From Hyphomicrobiaceae bacterium (GTDB lineage: Bacteria > Pseudomonadota > Alphaproteobacteria > Rhizobiales > Hyphomicrobiaceae): DNA of 64,000 bases. Positions 51,682 to 58,899 of this stretch are shown in pieces. A program made the position numbers and the translations under genes. Each line of letters opens with the position of its first letter. The stretch's first letter is position 1. Under the pieces are notes generated by a model. The model had not been told where the DNA came from. It did not search any database and was given only the letters and a program-made list of their open reading frames with translations. The DNA is taken from assembly GCA_022844275.1 (NCBI GenBank), contig JALHMB010000001.1, forward strand, positions 496,001 through 560,000. The letters are read 5' to 3'.

Positions 51682-51771
51682 GGAGAGGTGGCAGAGTGGT
51701 CGATCGCGCCGCACTCGAAATGCGGAGTACGGGCAACCGTACCGGGGGTTCGAATCCCTCCCTCTCCGCCA
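51682..51771 (+). tRNA. tRNA-Ser (anticodon CGA)
   Basis: A 90-nt class II tRNA. Acceptor stem GGAGAGG (51682-51688) pairs with CCTCTCC (51761-51767), discriminator G and encoded CCA at 51769-51771. Anticodon stem CCGCA/TGCGG encloses the loop CTCGAAA with anticodon CGA at 51716-51718. The long variable arm and GGTTCGAATCC T-arm are present. Its 3' end is duplicated at 54408-54421. Confidence 0.97.
51758..51771 (+). repeat. attL-like site, 3' end of tRNA-Ser
   Basis: The 14-bp CTCCCTCTCCGCCA, here the end of the tRNA, recurs at 54408-54421 in the same direction. TTCGAA also occurs just upstream in both copies, offset by one nucleotide. This is the structure left by tRNA-site integration. Confidence 0.8.
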
Positions 51772-51824
51772 GTTAACCACAATAAACGGCTGAAATTACG
51801 CGATTTTTTCGACAATCCCCCTCG

Positions 51825-51848
51825 TCGGCATAACCGTGGGCATAACAT
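51825..51848. repeat. CATAAC direct-repeat site, left
   Basis: A 24-bp sequence whose core is CATAACCGTGGGCATAAC occurs perfectly here and at 54263-54286, same orientation, near both ends of the islet. Each contains two CATAAC copies. Resembles arm-type binding sites of a tyrosine integrase. Confidence 0.75.
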
Positions 51849-52068
51849 TTTGGGGATGCCGAAGTCCACCCAAGATGCGGGTGGCTGTGGACAAGTCAAG
51901 CGGCCATCTTGAAGGCGCCCGACGACATCCCAACTATCCAGCCACGGAATAGTCGAGGCGTGCAGGGGGCACCGGGTAGACTACTAAACATCCCGAAAAT
52001 CCCCACGCTGGCTCAACGCGCGATGTCGACTAAGTTAGGACCCCGCGCACGATGATAGGAGCCACCTC

Positions 52069-52191
52069 ATGGGTGTGTTTCTTATCCTCGAGGCCAGTCA
52101 GCCGAGCGGCGCGCGCTACCGTCTGACCTTTGGATGCCTAGTGCATCCGAGATGGGCTTCGATGGTATCGGCGCTGTCGCGGTTGATTTGA
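52069..52191 (+). CDS. Possible 40-aa protein
   Basis: Opens at ATG 52069 with AGGA at 52057-52060 and ends immediately before a hairpin. No homology is recognisable; the composition is not distinctive. It could be a leader peptide or chance. Confidence 0.2.
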   Translation: MGVFLILEASQPSGARYRLTFGCLVHPRWASMVSALSRLI

Positions 52192-52194
52192 ACG

Positions 52195-52222
52195 AAGGGC
52201 GCCTCGGCAACGGGGCGCCCTT
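52195..52222 (+). terminator. Candidate terminator hairpin in the islet
   Basis: AAGGGCGCC (52195-52203) pairs with GGCGCCCTT (52214-52222) with a 10-nt loop; only CTTCG follows, so the T-tract is poor. It may end the short upstream frame or insulate the next gene. Confidence 0.4.
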
Positions 52223-52262
52223 CTTCGCACTTCATGTTGGGGACATCAACGGGGTCAATCTG

Positions 52263-52766
52263 ATGATTGATATTGGTTCTCTGGCGAGCCTTGCTGGTTC
52301 GCTTAAAACAGCCGGCGACATTGCACAGACGCTTGTGGGCCTTCGAGATGCCAACCTAATTCAGCAGAAAGTCATTGATCTCAATCGGGAGATTATCGCT
52401 GCTCAAAGCAGCGCAATAACAACTCAATCTCAATACGCCGCACTGACTCAACAGGTGCGTGATTTAATCGCTCGCATTGCCGAGCTAGAGGCATGGGAGC
52501 AAGAGAAGCTGCGCTATCAACTGACTGACCACGGCGGCGGCACGTTCACATATGCTTTGAAGGCGGGGATGGAAAACGGTGAGCCGTTCCATCGCATCTG
52601 CGCGCATTGCTATCAGGTGCGGCGCAAGTCGCTGCTACAGTCGCATGGGAACATTGTTGGCGGGCGGGAGAAGGTCACTTGCCATGCGTGCAATGGCGAG
52701 ATTCTGCTCGGTGAATACCGCAGGTCGCCGACACCAAGCAGCTACACGGATTCTTGGCGCGCTTAG
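52263..52766 (+). CDS. Islet protein with coiled coil and C-terminal zinc-ribbon-like Cys
   Basis: A 167-aa protein of unknown role. It begins IDIGSLASLAGSLKTAGDIA and has a long helical segment rich in Gln/Ala/Leu (VIDLNREIIAAQSSAITTQS, then LTQQVRDLIARIAELEAWEQ) likely forming a coiled coil. The C-terminal region (ICAHCYQVRRKSLLQSHGN, then EKVTCHACNGEIL) has two CxxC pairs spaced like a zinc ribbon. Such proteins are frequent in phages and islands. ATG 52263 is chosen; the frame back to 52134 is unlike it. GC is lower here than in neighbours, consistent with transfer. Confidence 0.65.
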   Translation: MIDIGSLASLAGSLKTAGDIAQTLVGLRDANLIQQKVIDLNREIIAAQSSAITTQSQYAALTQQVRDLIARIAELEAWEQEKLRYQLTDHGGGTFTYALKAGMENGEPFHRICAHCYQVRRKSLLQSHGNIVGGREKVTCHACNGEILLGEYRRSPTPSSYTDSWRA

Positions 52767-52775
52767 GTGCTCGCG

Positions 52776-53765
52776 TCAAACGAACAGGCTGGCCTGCCCA
52801 GGCACTTCGACTCGCGCCCGCTTCGTCGAATACTCCTCAAAAGGCTTGTGCATATAGTCGCGCGTTATCACCCACCGCTGAAGTCGCTTCAGCGTCGGAT
52901 AGAGTGGCGACCTCTTGCGCCGATCGTCGCCGCCGAACACCATTGGATAGGGTCGAATGCCGCGCTCAACCATCCGATTGAGGCGGTGCATGACTCGCTC
53001 AATTGTCTCGCGAGGATCATAGCCAACCAGCATATAGGCAAACACCCACGTCGACTTCCATCCCGCGTGCTCTAGCCTGTCGATGCCGTCGAAAAAGACG
53101 CGCTCGTCACCAATGTTGTCCCAAGCCGTATAAAGGCGGCGCCGAGAAAATCCATCGTCCCACGGCGCCATTTTCACGATCGCGGTGGCCTGCTCATCGT
53201 CGAGAAGGCGCACGTTGATGCCCTGATTGATGCAGACCTTGAAGCCTCCATCGACTATATCGTCGACACGATCGCGCCATTCTGGATTTCCGAAAAAATC
53301 GTTGTCGAGCAGGTGGAGGTGGCGCGGATAATCGTCGCCCCGCCAAATTTGCGCGATCGGTGAAGCCGCGCGAGCCTTACCCTCTTGCTTTGGAACGATG
53401 CAGAAACCGCATTTGAAACGGCATCCGCGCATTGTGTAACCTATGCTGGCGGTGAAGTCAGGATAGCCGGAATAGTCGAGCGCCGTGAATTGCGTTGGCA
53501 CGATCGCCTCAACGCGCAACGCCGAGTCGCCGCCGCTCCCACCAACAATTGCGCCGGGGAAGTTGGCGCGGAATACCTCAACTGCCTTCGCGCTCGTTGC
53601 AAATATCGCCGAGCCATACACGAGGTCGTAGGCTGGTTCCATAAGCCCCGGCGAGACTCCGCGCTCCCATCGCACATCGTCGCCTTGCGCGCGATGCCAA
53701 GCGGCGAGGCGCATCAATGCGAGGTTCGGCAATTTGCCGTCTATTTGGGTAATGCGAACGATCAT
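52776..53765 (-). CDS. Radical SAM protein of the islet
   Basis: A 329-aa radical SAM enzyme. The cluster-binding motif CRFKCGFC (CX3CX2C) lies near residues 114-121, preceded by TASIGYTMRG. The N terminus (MIVRITQIDGKLPNLALMRL, AAWHRAQGDDVRW) resembles B12-binding-type starts (DGKLPNLAL), though the DxHxxG cobalamin signature is not clear. Other blocks: PRHLHLLDNDFFGNPEWRDR, INQGINVRLLDDEQA and the conserved GGDDRRKRSPLYPTLKR. Substrate unknown; related phage-encoded radical SAM proteins occur. It begins within the stop of the next gene (ATGA overlap). Confidence 0.88.
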   Translation of the reverse strand: MIVRITQIDGKLPNLALMRLAAWHRAQGDDVRWERGVSPGLMEPAYDLVYGSAIFATSAKAVEVFRANFPGAIVGGSGGDSALRVEAIVPTQFTALDYSGYPDFTASIGYTMRGCRFKCGFCIVPKQEGKARAASPIAQIWRGDDYPRHLHLLDNDFFGNPEWRDRVDDIVDGGFKVCINQGINVRLLDDEQATAIVKMAPWDDGFSRRRLYTAWDNIGDERVFFDGIDRLEHAGWKSTWVFAYMLVGYDPRETIERVMHRLNRMVERGIRPYPMVFGGDDRRKRSPLYPTLKRLQRWVITRDYMHKPFEEYSTKRARVEVPGQASLFV

Positions 53766-53953
53766 TTCTCGGCCAGCCGCCTATAGGCCCAGCCGATGAA
53801 CCATTCGTGGTAGAGGTTGAGGCGACCACTATCTCGATCGTCCTCAAGTCCAGAATCGCCATCCTGTAGCGGAGCAAGGCCGGTGTCGGCCTCAAACTGA
53901 CGGCGTTCCGCCGGATTGCGCCAGAGGCGGTCAATTTCGATGCGATACTTCAT
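53762..53953 (-). CDS. Small 63-aa protein coupled to the radical SAM gene
   Basis: A short acidic/basic protein (MKYRIEIDRLWRNPAERRQF) with many charged residues and no Cys pair, ending WFIGWAYRRLAEK. Its stop overlaps the radical SAM ATG by four bases, so the two are translationally coupled. GAGGG lies just before the ATG at 53953. Unrecognised; possibly a substrate-binding or accessory partner. Confidence 0.7.
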   Translation of the reverse strand: MKYRIEIDRLWRNPAERRQFEADTGLAPLQDGDSGLEDDRDSGRLNLYHEWFIGWAYRRLAEK

Positions 53954-54008
53954 AACCCTCTAAAATCACAGCGTCGTCCCCGCTGCGTGGCTGTTCGGGT
54001 GGCCTTGC

Positions 54009-54197
54009 TTATCGGGCCGGGGGGTGGACTGCGCGCCTGTCGGAGAGGTTGCGTCCCACCACCGGCACGCACGATTCATCCAGCCGCATCTCGCCCAGAC
54101 CGCATACGCGGCAGAGGTCGAGAACGATATGTCCGTTACGGTCTTTGATGACGCTCGGGGCGTCGGGGTCGCCCTGGCGATAGAGAATGTGAGCCAC
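54009..54197 (-). CDS. Small 62-aa protein with a CxxC motif
   Basis: Starts with GTG at 54197, preceded by GGAAGGA. AHILYRQGDPDAPSVIKDRN then GHIVLDLCRVCGLGEMRLDE shows a CRVC pair and a further Cys (DESCVPVVG), suggesting zinc or iron-sulfur binding. It is upstream of the 63-aa/radical SAM pair on the same strand, so all three may be one operon. No homologue is known to me. Confidence 0.6.
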   Translation of the reverse strand: MAHILYRQGDPDAPSVIKDRNGHIVLDLCRVCGLGEMRLDESCVPVVGRNLSDRRAVHPPAR

Positions 54198-54262
54198 GCA
54201 AAATTCCTTCCAAAAAGAACCAACAAATCCGACAGCGGATTCATAGCTTCGTCAGTGCAATC

Positions 54263-54286
54263 TCGGCATAACCGTGGGCATAACAT
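54263..54286. repeat. CATAAC direct-repeat site, right
   Basis: Perfect 24-bp copy of 51825-51848, 122 bp before the right att-like repeat. Together the two sites bracket the islet. Confidence 0.75.
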
Positions 54287-54407
54287 CGGCCGAATGCTTG
54301 AATATCTAGGCACCACGGGAACTTAGGTGCGAAACGGCAAAATTTAACCAATTAATCAAGGACTTAGGCGCAGTCAGACGGAGTTTGGCGGAGCACCTTC
54401 GAAATGG

Positions 54408-54421
54408 CTCCCTCTCCGCCA
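54408..54421 (+). repeat. attR-like copy of the tRNA-Ser 3' end
   Basis: CTCCCTCTCCGCCA in the same orientation as the tRNA end at 51758-51771, 2.65 kb away. It bounds an islet without any recognised integrase gene. Confidence 0.8.
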
Positions 54422-54524
54422 CACCCCAATCCGCCACCCTCCCCTAAAGTCCACACAAATCCCCGATTTTGTTGATCTTTTCGCCCTTTTTGGTGAAAGG
54501 GGCCGAGGGCATTGAAGCCCCGAA

Positions 54525-54558
54525 TGTTATGCGCGGGTTATGCGCGCGGTTATGCGTG
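54525..54558. repeat. Related CATAAC/GTTATG cluster in opposite orientation
   Basis: Three GTTATGCG units follow one another (GTTATGCGCGG, GTTATGCGCGCG, GTTATGCGTG). Their reverse complement, beginning CATAACCGCGCGCATAAC, resembles the direct-repeat sites inside the islet but lies just outside the right repeat. Confidence 0.6.
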
Positions 54559-54716
54559 AAAACGTGGTTCATCGACATTCCGGCCACAGGCATGTGGCGC
54601 TCAGGCAAGCGAGACTGTGGACAACCGGCGGCACGCCCGGTGAACTCGCTGTTGTCCCGGAGCACATTGGCGCGCCAAGTCCCGAGGAGACCCGTCGTGT
54701 CGAAGATGCCCACGGT

Positions 54717-54839
54717 TCATTCGCCCTCCCACCACTTCACGAACATCGCAAGCGCTTCGATGAAACCGAACACACACGCGCACACAAACAGGACGGCGCC
54801 TGTGCCAAGGATAAACTGCTCGAAGCCGGTTGGAGTCAC
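54717..54839 (-). CDS. Small 40-aa single-span membrane protein
   Basis: Too short for ordinary gene calls. It starts at GTG 54839, with AGGAGG (54845-54850) five nt upstream, and ends at TGA 54719-54717. One hydrophobic helix (FILGTGAVLFVCACVFGFIE) is followed by a C-terminal KWWEGE. The strong ribosome binding site is the main evidence. It lies downstream of the molybdenum oxidoreductase subunit gene on the same strand; unknown function. Confidence 0.6.
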   Translation of the reverse strand: MTPTGFEQFILGTGAVLFVCACVFGFIEALAMFVKWWEGE

Positions 54840-54866: not shown

Positions 54867-57071
54867 CTACGTCGGCAACGATTTGAGGATCTTGTTGAGG
54901 GTAAGGGGGTAGTCGCGTATGCGAGCACCGCACGCATTGTACACCGCATTCGCCACCGCGGCCCCAGCACCGCATATGCCGAGCTCACCGACACCCTTGG
55001 CTTTCATCGGCGAGGATTTCGCATCGACTTCATCGAGGAAGACGACCTCCTGATGAGGTATGTCGGCATGCACAGGGACCAAGTATTCCGCCATGTCATG
55101 ATTGACGAAATAGCCGCGCTTTTTGTCGACGACGGCTTCTTCCATCAACGCCGCGCCGACGCCCATCGACATCGCTCCGATGATTTGGCTGCGGGCGGTC
55201 TTCGGATTGAGGATCCTGCCTGCTGCAAACACGCCAAGCATCCGGCGAACGCGCACCTCACACGTGTGCCGGTCGACGCCTGCTTCCACAAAGTGCGCGC
55301 CGAAGGTCGCTTGAGCGTAGCGTTCGCTGAGATCGCCGAACTCAATGCCGTCATCAACCGTGATGCCCTTGTCGCCCGCGGCCTCGGCGAGTGACACCAC
55401 GCGCGTACCCGAACGCAATTCGCCGTTTTCGAACACGACATCCTTCGAATTGAAACCGACCTTCTGGGTGATGGCATCACGAAGCGACATGCAAGCGGCG
55501 TATACGCCAGCGGTCGAGCTGTTGCCGCCCCACTGTCCGCCAGATCCGGCCGATACGGGAAAACTAGAGTCGCCGAGCTGCACCGACACGCGTTCGATCG
55601 GCACGCCCAAGAGTTCCGCCGCAGTCTGCGCAATGATGGTGTAGCTGCCAGTACCGATGTCGGTCATATCCGTTGCGATCGTGACCATGCCGCGCTTGTC
55701 GACACTGGCGCGCGCGGCCGACTTCATCGTGATATTGCCGCGAAACGCCGCGGCAACACCCATGCCGATGAGCCACCGTCCATCACGAACCTGACCGGGC
55801 GTTGGATTGCGGCGGCTCCAACCAAACCTGTCTGCGCCCAATTGGAGGCACTCGACGAAGCGGCGTTCCGAGAACGGCACACTCGGCCCCTTTTCCGGAT
55901 CGTATTGCGTGTCATTGACGATCCGTAGTTGTACTGGGTCCATGCGCAGGCGCTCCGCCAACTCATCCATCGCGATTTCAAGCGCAAGCATTCCGGCCGC
56001 TTCACCAGGGGCACGCATGGCATTGCCCTCCGGCAGGTCGAGTGTCGCGAGCCGATGAGCGGTCAAGCGTGCTTCGCCGGCATAGAGCTGGCGCGTTTGC
56101 TTTGCCGCAATCTCGACATCGCCGCCTTCGAGATCGCCGGACCAGCTCTCGTGCGCGATCGCCGAGATACGGCCGTCTCGGGAAGCACCGAGGCGAATAC
56201 GCTGAATAGTCGCCGGGCGGTGCGTCGTGTTGTTGTAGGCTTGAGGTCGAGTTAGCGCGACCTTGACGGGACGTCCCGTGGCACGCGCGCCGAGCGCCGC
56301 CATCACGGCATCCGCCCGCACCCAAAGCTTCGAACCAAAGCCGCCGCCGATGTAGGGCGAGCTGACGTGTATCCGCTCGGGTGGAATGAGAAGTGTCTCA
56401 CTCATATCTCGCACAGCCCAAGCAATCATCTGGTTCGACGTCCAGAGGCTAAGCTTGTCGCCCTCCCACGCCGCTATGGTCGCATGTGGCTCCATCATCG
56501 CGTGGCACTGATCGGGGGTCGTGTACGTTTCGTCGAGTTGCACATCGGCCGCCGCAAACGCGGCGGCGAAATCGCCGACGGCGGTGTCGGGGGTATCACC
56601 CTTTTCCTGCGGCTTCACCGCTTTATCTCGCTGGCCGGCGAGATCGAAGCGTCCTTCCTCGCGCAGATAGTCAACTTTGATCAGATGAGCCGCAGCACGA
56701 GCCTGCTCGAATGTTTCAGCAACGACGATGGCGACCGCCTGATCGTAGTGCTGAACGCCTGGACCTGCGAGCATCCTGGCCGTATGCGCCTTTGCTTTGC
56801 CGAGCTTGCCGGCATTCTCGTAGGTTACAATGGCCAAGACGCCAGGTGCTCTTCGTGCTTCCCCGACATCAATCGTGCGGATCGAACCCTTGGCGATGCT
56901 CGCGCCGAGAATGTAGCCGTAGGCAGTTCCTTTCGCGACGTCGTGCCGCTCGTAGGCATAGGGGGCTCGACCCGTTGTCTTCAATGGTCCGTCAATGCGG
57001 TTGATGGGCCGCCCGACCACCCGTTCCTTGTCGATGAGATTGGCTTCTGCGGGAATGTCGAACTTCATCAT
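54867..57071 (-). CDS. paoC: Xanthine dehydrogenase family molybdopterin subunit (PaoC-like)
   Basis: Large catalytic subunit (734 aa) binding the Mo-cytosine dinucleotide cofactor. It begins [40 protein letters not shown] holds the cofactor loop, followed by [20 protein letters not shown] with the conserved arginine. The catalytic glutamate lies in [20 protein letters not shown] near the C terminus. It resembles the E. coli PaoABC aldehyde oxidoreductase. The ATG overlaps the FAD-subunit stop (ATGA) with GGAGGA upstream. Likely oxidises aromatic aldehydes in the periplasm. Confidence 0.93.
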
Positions 57072-58027
57072 GTGCGCATTCCTCCTTGCTCGAGCACCGA
57101 CGCCAGCGTGCGTTCGGTCAAGCGAAGCTTGTAGGCATTGTCCGACGTCGGGCGGGCGTCCGCGAGAAGACGTTCCGAAATCGCCTTCGCCCCGCTATCC
57201 GCTAGCTTCTCTGCGGATTCTACGCGCCAAGGCTTCGGCGCAAGACCGCCAAAGGCCACCCGTACGGTGCGATCTGCCGGGTGAACGATCGCTGCGATTG
57301 ATACCGTCGCAAATGCGTAGGATGCGCGATCTCGGACCTTGCGATAGAGCTGAGTACCGCCAATAGGCTTCGGAAGTCGAACTGATTTGACGAGCTCACC
57401 TTGCTCTAGGGTAGTCTCGATATGCGGCGTATCACCGGGCAGCCGATGCAGGTCAACAATCGGAATTTGGCGCTCGCTTCCATCGGGCATGAGAGTTTCC
57501 ACGACTGCATCCAGCGTCCGCAAGGCGACTGCCATATCCGAGGGATGGGTGGCGATGCAGGCCTCGCTGGTACCGACCACACCGAGATTTCGGCTGAAAC
57601 CTTCCGCGGCGCTGCAGCCACTGCCGGGCACGCGCTTATTGCAGGGCTGATTGGTGTCGTAGAAATAGGGGCATCGCGTCCGCTGAAGAAGATTGCCCGC
57701 GGTGGTAGCCCTATTGCGAAGCTGCCCGGACGCGCCCGCTGCCAGCGCCCGCGCCAAGACGGGATAGTGCTCACGCACGCGCTGATCCGCCATCAAGTCA
57801 GTATTCCTGACCGTGGCGCCGATCCTCAAGCCGCCGTCCGGCAGCACATCGATTTGATCTAGTGGCAGACGGTTGATGTCGACGAGATGGTCTGGTGCTT
57901 CTATCTCATGCTTCATGAGATCGAGAAGGTTCGTGCCACCGGCGATAAACCGCCGGCTTGGCGATGCCGATACGATATTTGCGGCAGCGCGAGGATCGCT
58001 CGCCCGTTCGTAGTTGAAGGGTTTCAT
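57068..58027 (-). CDS. paoB: FAD-binding subunit (PaoB-like) with Cys cluster
   Basis: A 319-aa medium subunit. FAD-binding region: [20 protein letters not shown] and the [20 protein letters not shown] segment. The insert with [20 protein letters not shown] and SGCSAAEG, then [16 protein letters not shown], matches the PaoB loop that binds an extra 4Fe-4S cluster. C-terminal CO_deh_flav domain: [19 protein letters not shown]. It is translationally coupled at both ends (ATGA overlaps with paoA and paoC). It passes electrons from Mo via FeS to FAD. Confidence 0.93.
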
Positions 58028-58662
58028 GTCGCTTGCCCCGCTACGTCCTGAATGGCGTCGATGATGTTGGAATAAGCAGCGCAGCGACAGATATTGCCGC
58101 TCATACGCTCCCTGAGCTCATCGGCGGTCGGTGAATATGGGCCTGCGAGATCATTCGATACGTGGCTCGGGATGCCGTCCTTGATTTCGTCGAGGACCGC
58201 GACGGCCGAACAGATCTGCCCGGGCGTACAGTAGCCGCACTGGTAGCCGTCATGGTTGACGAACGCCTCCTGCATAGCGTGCATTTTTTCAGGCGTGCCG
58301 AGCCCCTCGATGGTTACGATCTCATCGCCGTCGTGCATGATTGCGAGAGAAAGGCAGCTATTTATACGCCGCCCGGCGACCAGCATGGTGCAGGCACCGC
58401 ATTGACCGTGATCGCAGCCCTTTTTGCTGCCAGTCAGTTTGATGTGCTCTCGAACGGCATCCAGCAGCGTGACTCTGGTGTCGACGTTCAGCTCGTGCTG
58501 CTCACCGTTCACGATCAGGCGGACGGAGTTCATTTGCGGCTTTCCTTGTGCGGTTTCAGTCGGTGACTGCGCGCGAGCGGGCACCAGACGATGTGCGGTG
58601 ACGGCGGCGGTGCCGACCAGCACACCGCGACGCGACACGGGAATGGTTGGAAATCGGCGCAT
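58024..58662 (-). CDS. paoA: 2Fe-2S subunit of the aldehyde oxidoreductase (PaoA-like), Tat exported
   Basis: A 212-aa small subunit. A Tat-type signal ([20 protein letters not shown]) precedes the 2Fe-2S ferredoxin domain [20 protein letters not shown] and a C-terminal 2Fe-2S domain with [17 protein letters not shown] and [14 protein letters not shown] 58662 is chosen because GGAGG (58670-58674) precedes it by 7 nt; the frame is open to 58761. The whole enzyme presumably folds in the cytoplasm before export. No MCD maturation gene (paoD) is adjacent. Confidence 0.93.
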
Positions 58663-58899
58663 CTGCTCGCCTCCGAACATGGACCATGGCAAGCGCTGAT
58701 CAGTTCCGAGCGCTTTGTCGATCAACTCATCGGGAGTGAAAAGGCTCCGAATAATGTCCAATTCGGCCAGCGAAAGAGAGAAAATGTGATCTACGCCCCG
58801 ATGGGCAGGTGTTGGCTTCGCCGCCTAAAACCCCCGGGAACTTCCTTTGGCCGGCGCTGTTAGGGCAGATAATCGGCACCTCTACAGCGGAGACCAGCA

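Follow-up and report, generated by a model that had tools for sequence, protein, structure and literature searches.

An integrase-less islet with paired end repeats at tRNA-Ser(CGA) of a Hyphomicrobiaceae bacterium, possibly mobilised in trans, and similar islets in the family

The stretch analysed here (the window) comprises 64,000 nucleotides of contig JALHMB010000001.1 (assembly GCA_022844275.1, positions 496,001 to 560,000) of a Hyphomicrobiaceae bacterium and carries, at the 3′ end of its tRNA-Ser(CGA) gene, an islet that measures 2650 bp from end to end. The islet has two defined ends, each with a copy of the tRNA end and of an internal repeat, contains no integrase gene, occupies a variable site and has relatives in the family that share ends with one another and differ in cargo. 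On balance, we favour the reading that it is a non-autonomous integrative element, related to the cis-mobilizable elements (CIMEs), which is mobilised in trans by the integrase of an autonomous element.

An earlier note on this DNA, made from the sequence without database searches, had described an islet bounded by a second copy of the 14-bp end of tRNA-Ser(CGA), and ARAGORN, Rfam and a comparison of the repeats confirmed this. The two copies, attL and attR (Table 1), are 89% identical when widened to 19 nt. By arithmetic from 4^14, a given 14-mer is expected by chance about 5e-5 times per 12 kb; in the whole genome, an exact 3′-end repeat of at least 11 nt was found in the downstream stretch read at 4 of the 45 tRNA genes. 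Rfam returned nothing besides the tRNA above threshold (two matches below it overlapped the tRNA and were not considered), and a 12-nt match at 54706-54717 was set aside as being at chance level. The GC content was 57% in the islet, 61-68% in the left flank and 58-63% in the right flank; because the right flank is so near to the islet in this respect, composition is weak evidence.

The earlier note had held that the islet would be refuted if all related strains carried the same genes at this place with no variation. This condition went in favour of the islet: two genomes of the same genus, G003 and G004, show synteny with the left flank (44.6-51.7 kb) as far as the tRNA gene, and beyond it the window and these two genomes each carry different DNA. 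Synteny with G003 returns at 70.9 kb (window plus following contig), corresponding to 26 kb past the tRNA in G003 (E 1e-15); two G003 matches before this point were taken as paralogues, their identity being just 28-30%. G003 and G004 have a tandem repeat of their own past the tRNA, with runs of 7 and 8 nt, respectively, and in G003 an integrase lies 16 kb farther downstream of it. In other genera, a repeat of at least 7 nt was absent at 8 of the 10 tRNA-Ser(CGA) sites that were printed in full. Two of these eight (G024 and G026) have downstream sequences that can be aligned to each other by eye, and their tRNA-Ser(CGA) is probably an unoccupied site.

Inside both ends the islet carries a 24-bp direct repeat that is perfect between the two ends, each copy consisting of tandem GGCATAAC units with 12-bp spacing. 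At up to 3 mismatches, the 22-bp core of this repeat occurred in the window at the two islet ends only, and in none of 100 shuffles. Among 103 genomes of the family, the motif GGCATAACNNNNGGCATAAC was matched in two, namely in the genome of the window (the two islet copies) and in G121, where the copy lies 80 nt past the 3′ end of tRNA-Gln and ahead of a gene for a 437-aa PF00589 integrase. The G121 match is telling by its position alone: the chance of landing less than 100 nt after a tRNA gene is estimated at ~0.1%, assuming 45 tRNAs per 4 Mb. Since the motif stands there between a tRNA gene and a tyrosine-integrase gene, the islet repeat is read as a putative integrase arm-type site. No match to the motif was found in IMG/VR.

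In the genome of the window, a direct-repeat run of at least 8 nt at a spacing of 10-14 was present within 190 nt past the tRNA at 10 of the 45 tRNA genes (two of which had less than 110 nt to scan), compared with 3.6% of random positions. One of the ten, tRNA-Gly(GCC), was removed despite its 8-nt run, which is a low-complexity triple repeat with a spacing of 14. Three of the nine kept (Ser-GGA, Lys and Arg) have an integrase within 3 kb, tRNA-Ser(GGA) showing the same order of tRNA, tandem repeat and integrase; at the other six, no integrase was found within the 9.9-12.2 kb read downstream. The enrichment and these layouts are therefore compatible with arm-type sites of some tyrosine integrases, implying that the end repeats of the islet may bind such an enzyme.

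That no recombinase lies inside the islet, as the earlier note had stated, was borne out. The whole genome has 15 PF00589 matches, none of them on the 1.02-Mb contig of the window, and a tblastn search of the islet with 20 integrases as queries yielded no match below E 0.05, with both positive controls recovered. The top match (E 0.061), two short pieces of the integrase of the G014 tRNA-Ser(CGA) site, was taken as chance, as both pieces fall inside the radical S-adenosylmethionine (SAM) gene. Neither transfer genes nor a conjugation family were found among the islet proteins.

Comparable integrase-less islets occur elsewhere in the family. At tRNA-Ser(GCT) of the metagenome-assembled genome G008, two islets of 3202 and 2674 bp lie in tandem. 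Their right ends are identical at 156 of 176 alignment columns, repeats included, and blastn showed no similarity between their middles; the left repeat of the second islet is degenerate. G008 has 11 PF00589 matches, none on the 55.9-kb contig with the islets. Among the cargo of these islets are a DNA methyltransferase and a protease with a 1.3e-95 match to the PADLOC candidate PDC-S45. The genome of the window has a further islet, of 2018 bp, at tRNA-Tyr, with two repeat units on the left and one on the right. This islet (L010, 7857-9875; G000:C2), also without an integrase, encodes a protein with matches to PHROGs of HNH endonucleases and regulators, and by eye a small excisionase-like helix-turn-helix open reading frame (ORF).

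A second kind of link is a 40-aa micro-gene, which was found in 6 of the 103 family genomes, from five genera, and which lies at tRNA genes in five of the six (four by ARAGORN, one by eye). Its loci are the window islet, G121, G085, G019 (tRNA-Arg), G111 (tRNA-Tyr) and G065. In G121 it sits between two copies of tRNA-Gly and in G085 within a tRNA-Gly that, judged by eye, seems to be interrupted at the anticodon loop; the G065 islet, 910 bp long, has repeats at both ends and is without a tRNA. A search with hmmsearch revealed no integrase in the stretches of 6-19 kb around each of the other five loci. The G121 islet is flanked by a 92-bp duplication with the whole tRNA-Gly (L142, 777-868 and 2388-2479). 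In the G111 islet, a 159-aa ORF (L143, 6895-7374) combines the beginning of a C5-cytosine methyltransferase with the terminal part of a methyltransferase of another type; each half is matched by PADLOC models, the types being judged by eye.

By sequence comparison, then, the predicted micro-gene links six islet-like loci and a predicted CxxC protein links the window islet with the G008 islets. The window islet would thus be a member of a loose set of 0.9-3.2 kb in the family, held together by common ends or small genes. The cargo of this set appears to be mostly phage-like or defence-like, and its members probably arose through internal deletion of prophages or islands.

Directly past attR lies a stretch read as the left-end module of an older second element. 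Positions 54424-54515 (92 nt) share 87% identity with the DNA 3-94 nt past the tRNA-Tyr gene of the same genome, and three GTTATGC units at 54526-54555 represent the same half-site in the opposite direction. Because this tRNA-Tyr-like module lies to the right of attR, the islet seems to have landed ahead of an older element end, and in the simplest course of events an element end of the tRNA-Tyr type was already in place beside tRNA-Ser when the islet inserted between the two. A scan of 30 kb to the right of the islet for another copy of the core, at up to 2 mismatches, gave none. The right flank from 54422 to ~70.9 kb may be one large second element; it contains genes of a PaoABC-type aldehyde oxidoreductase (window 54867-58761), which were not detected at the equivalent position in G003. 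A likeness of one end module at two tRNA targets was also seen between the DNA past tRNA-Ala(GGC) of the same genome and that past tRNA-Ser(CGA) of G004 (L078/L038; 87% identical, 295 nt, repeats included), and G004 has a tRNA-Ala-like end (by eye) and a similar module 8.7 kb further on.

Table 1. Features of the islet and its borders (window positions)
Feature	Position	Strand	Remark
tRNA-Ser(CGA)	51682..51771	+	ARAGORN and Rfam calls; 3′ end is the attachment site
attL core, 14 bp	51758..51771	+	last 14 bases of tRNA-Ser(CGA)
Left arm-type repeat (putative)	51825..51848	+	two units at 12-bp spacing; 53 nt inside left end
40-aa micro-ORF	52069..52191	+	6/103 family genomes, own included
210-aa protein, phrog_1244 family	52134..52766	+	listed start overlaps micro-ORF
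Terminator-like hairpin behind micro-ORF	52194..52223	+	kept in DNA alignment
Radical SAM protein, 329 aa, phrog_9298	52776..53765	-	CxxxCxxC motif
63-aa protein	53762..53953	-	no Pfam, PHROG or PADLOC family found
Leader ahead of minus-strand genes	53957..54006	-	resembles leader of methyltransferase-like gene in G111 islet
62-aa CxxC protein	54009..54197	-	identity of 55% and 59% with its counterparts in the two G008 islets
Right arm-type repeat (putative)	54263..54286	+	identical to left copy; 121 nt inside right end
attR core	54408..54421	+	exact copy of 14-bp tRNA-Ser(CGA) end
Left-end module of older second element	54422..54555		directly past attR

The radical SAM gene named in the earlier note was confirmed. 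Alignment of 29 sequences of this protein showed two cysteines of the CxxxCxxC motif to be invariant and one nearly so. IMG/VR yielded 97 relatives, with a top identity of 72%, and in vir215 the gene lies five genes ahead of the terminase large subunit gene. Among the 80 viral loci kept, 10 have an integrase within the fetched stretch, and none encodes the 210-aa, 63-aa, CxxC or micro-ORF proteins. In L154 the gene begins right behind a PF00589 integrase and a tRNA-like attP fragment (tRNA by eye), and L155 has a similar tRNA-like fragment (by eye), with no PF00589 match in its record; this layout is in keeping with a gene located at the end of a prophage. The AlphaFold model is good (mean predicted local distance difference test score 89). 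Foldseek with this model returned nothing at E <=0.001, its top rows being unrelated barrels with very low TM-scores; weaker rows to the B12-related protein AerR (90 columns) and to lysine-2,3-aminomutase are only hints of a B12-type radical SAM fold. PDB profile matches to pentatricopeptide-repeat/alpha-solenoid proteins were disregarded as a likely artefact of one helical stretch.

The 210-aa protein, which likely starts later than listed, has two CxxC pairs by eye, and in phage DMS3 its phrog_1244 relative adjoins the terminase large subunit gene; no IMG/VR match was found by close patterns. PHROG families were matched by both large window proteins and by all three G008 islet proteins tested, and PADLOC gave no match for the three window proteins tested. 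The small proteins with cysteine pairs proposed in the earlier note were upheld in part: the 62-aa protein has a CxxC pair and the 63-aa protein has no cysteine. In the genome-contig search, from which the window's own genome may be excluded, the CxxC protein was found in G008 only, and it had no IMG/VR match. Both G008 CxxC genes have ACG (L035, 5201 and 8393) where the window gene has its GTG start. The micro-ORF differs at 121, 61 and 135 places at codon positions 1, 2 and 3 (10 pairs), a pattern that is only weakly coding-like, so that its product may be a peptide or an RNA, and found no match in plasmids, phages or IMG/VR; the matches of L134-L136 to the micro-gene region were dropped, as they look like part of another gene.

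Mobilisation in trans would proceed as follows. The islet would keep the substrates of a tyrosine integrase, a tRNA-derived core and a tandem arm-type site at each end, with the enzyme itself gone. An incoming autonomous element with matching arm and core specificity would supply the integrase, which would bind the core and repeats of both ends, excise the islet as a circle and insert it at a tRNA end; the window islet would have landed between tRNA-Ser and the end of the older element. Its excision and transfer, as well as any function of its cargo, are what we infer. The earlier note had proposed either mobilisation in trans or a degenerate remnant, which is essentially right, with the first still inferential and the second a live rival; it had overlooked the paired repeats inside both ends, the end of the second element, the micro-gene and the similar islets elsewhere.

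Several results speak against this reading. As to a helper, the motif at up to 2 mismatches occurs in the genome outside the locus in two places only, both at least 45 kb from any listed tRNA or integrase (the reversed-motif control gave 3 matches), and it is missing from the other 396 of 397 order-level genomes. Raw motif counts are no better than those of the reversed pattern (1/103; 8/397). At tRNA-Ser(CGA) of G014 and G010, an integrase lies directly beside the tRNA and no such repeat was found; the end repeats are therefore not general to integrases. The single right unit of the tRNA-Tyr islet is an 8-mer with a ~3% chance of occurring in 2 kb (arithmetic). Furthermore, the G008 and tRNA-Tyr islets are without the micro-gene, the G019, G111 and G085 islets have no mapped right end, and among 199 genomes searched the radical SAM gene was found in the window's own genome only, with the islet in single copy.

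A bolder proposal is put forward tentatively: that Hyphomicrobiaceae-type bacteria may harbour a self-perpetuating class of miniature integrase-less islets, the tyrosine-integrase counterpart of miniature inverted-repeat transposable elements (MITEs). Each would retain only a core and paired arm sites, the 40-aa micro-gene or a CxxC protein and a small cargo of genes derived mostly from phages. Arm sets would be swapped, so that the islets could follow various integrases from one tRNA gene to another.

The rival that survives best, which we hold to be unlikely without being far-fetched, is that the islet is a decayed and immobile remnant (a classical CIME), a prophage or island that lost its integrase by internal deletion, and that the other islets are independent decays. 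It would account for the want of a matching helper in the genome, for a right neighbour that resembles a remnant end and for the radical SAM gene, which has viral relatives and in L154 stands as a prophage-end gene of the kind an internal deletion would spare. However, both 24-bp repeats are still identical, the tandem islets of G008 combine common ends with different middles, and six islet-like loci, in none of which an integrase was detected, have the micro-gene in common. The recurrence of the micro-gene, the shared ends and the intact repeats are not predicted by independent decay of different elements.

It is improbable that the islet is a miniature phage satellite borrowing both integrase and packaging from a helper phage. 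The terminase genes near the relatives in DMS3 and vir215 and the PHROG matches of the window and G008 proteins would agree with this, but no terminase, capsid, packaging or replication function was identified in the islet, the 232-aa protein of the G111 islet has no PHROG match, and the radical SAM gene of both L154 and L155 comes after a tRNA-like attP fragment instead. Known phage satellites are also far above 2.65 kb in size, and those like P4 or the phage-inducible chromosomal islands have a packaging or replication module and an integrase, which the islet lacks. Finally, a chance 14-bp copy at 54408 among ordinary chromosomal genes would suit the closeness of islet GC to right-flank GC, but is already contradicted by the additional 24-bp repeat that both ends carry internally, the loss of synteny at the tRNA end and the end module directly behind the second core.

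The nearest known concept is the CIME as defined in PMC5704250. Like a CIME, the islet appears from its sequence to have kept attL and attR, has no integration or transfer genes and adjoins the end of another element (PMC5704250). It departs from the CIME described there in that its set has paired end repeats, a micro-gene across different tRNAs and a very small size, features which suggest a propagating type and not single decayed elements. Nor is there a counterpart to mobilisation in cis by an adjacent functional element, as the contig has no integrase and the right neighbour is an end module (PMC5704250). As to the origin of CIMEs by decay of integrative and conjugative or integrative and mobilizable elements, the islet has no conjugation family, and its phage-like cargo points to a prophage if anything.

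The ssrA gene of Dehalococcoides has 15 islands without an integration module (PMC3146451). Here too, tandem islands lie between copies of an RNA-gene end, some of them without an integrase, but they share one site with serine-recombinase islands, whereas the islet set has tyrosine-integrase-like ends and several tRNA targets (PMC3146451). Arrays of attC sites lacking an integron integrase (CALIN) and MITEs are likewise unable to move autonomously and depend on an enzyme provided in trans, but with other enzymes and other ends, namely attC sites and inverted repeats (PMC11389934); the islet has direct repeats at its ends, associated with a tRNA core. Searches of open-access papers brought up no account of this set of islets. 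The islet resembles the islands of Islander and TIGER in its tRNA target and the 3′-end fragment at the far end, and differs in having no internal integrase gene, which the Islander definition needs (PMC4383910, PMC12424338); the 2025 TIGER/Islander resource insists on an integrase and drops islands of less than 2 kb (PMC12424338). Since island catalogues require an integrase, they overlook small islets that are mobilised in trans. If such islets are mobile, some of the cargo at tRNA genes that serves phage defence or derives from phages would spread through borrowed integrases, and the end repeats would provide a simple and testable rule for pairing an islet with its helper.

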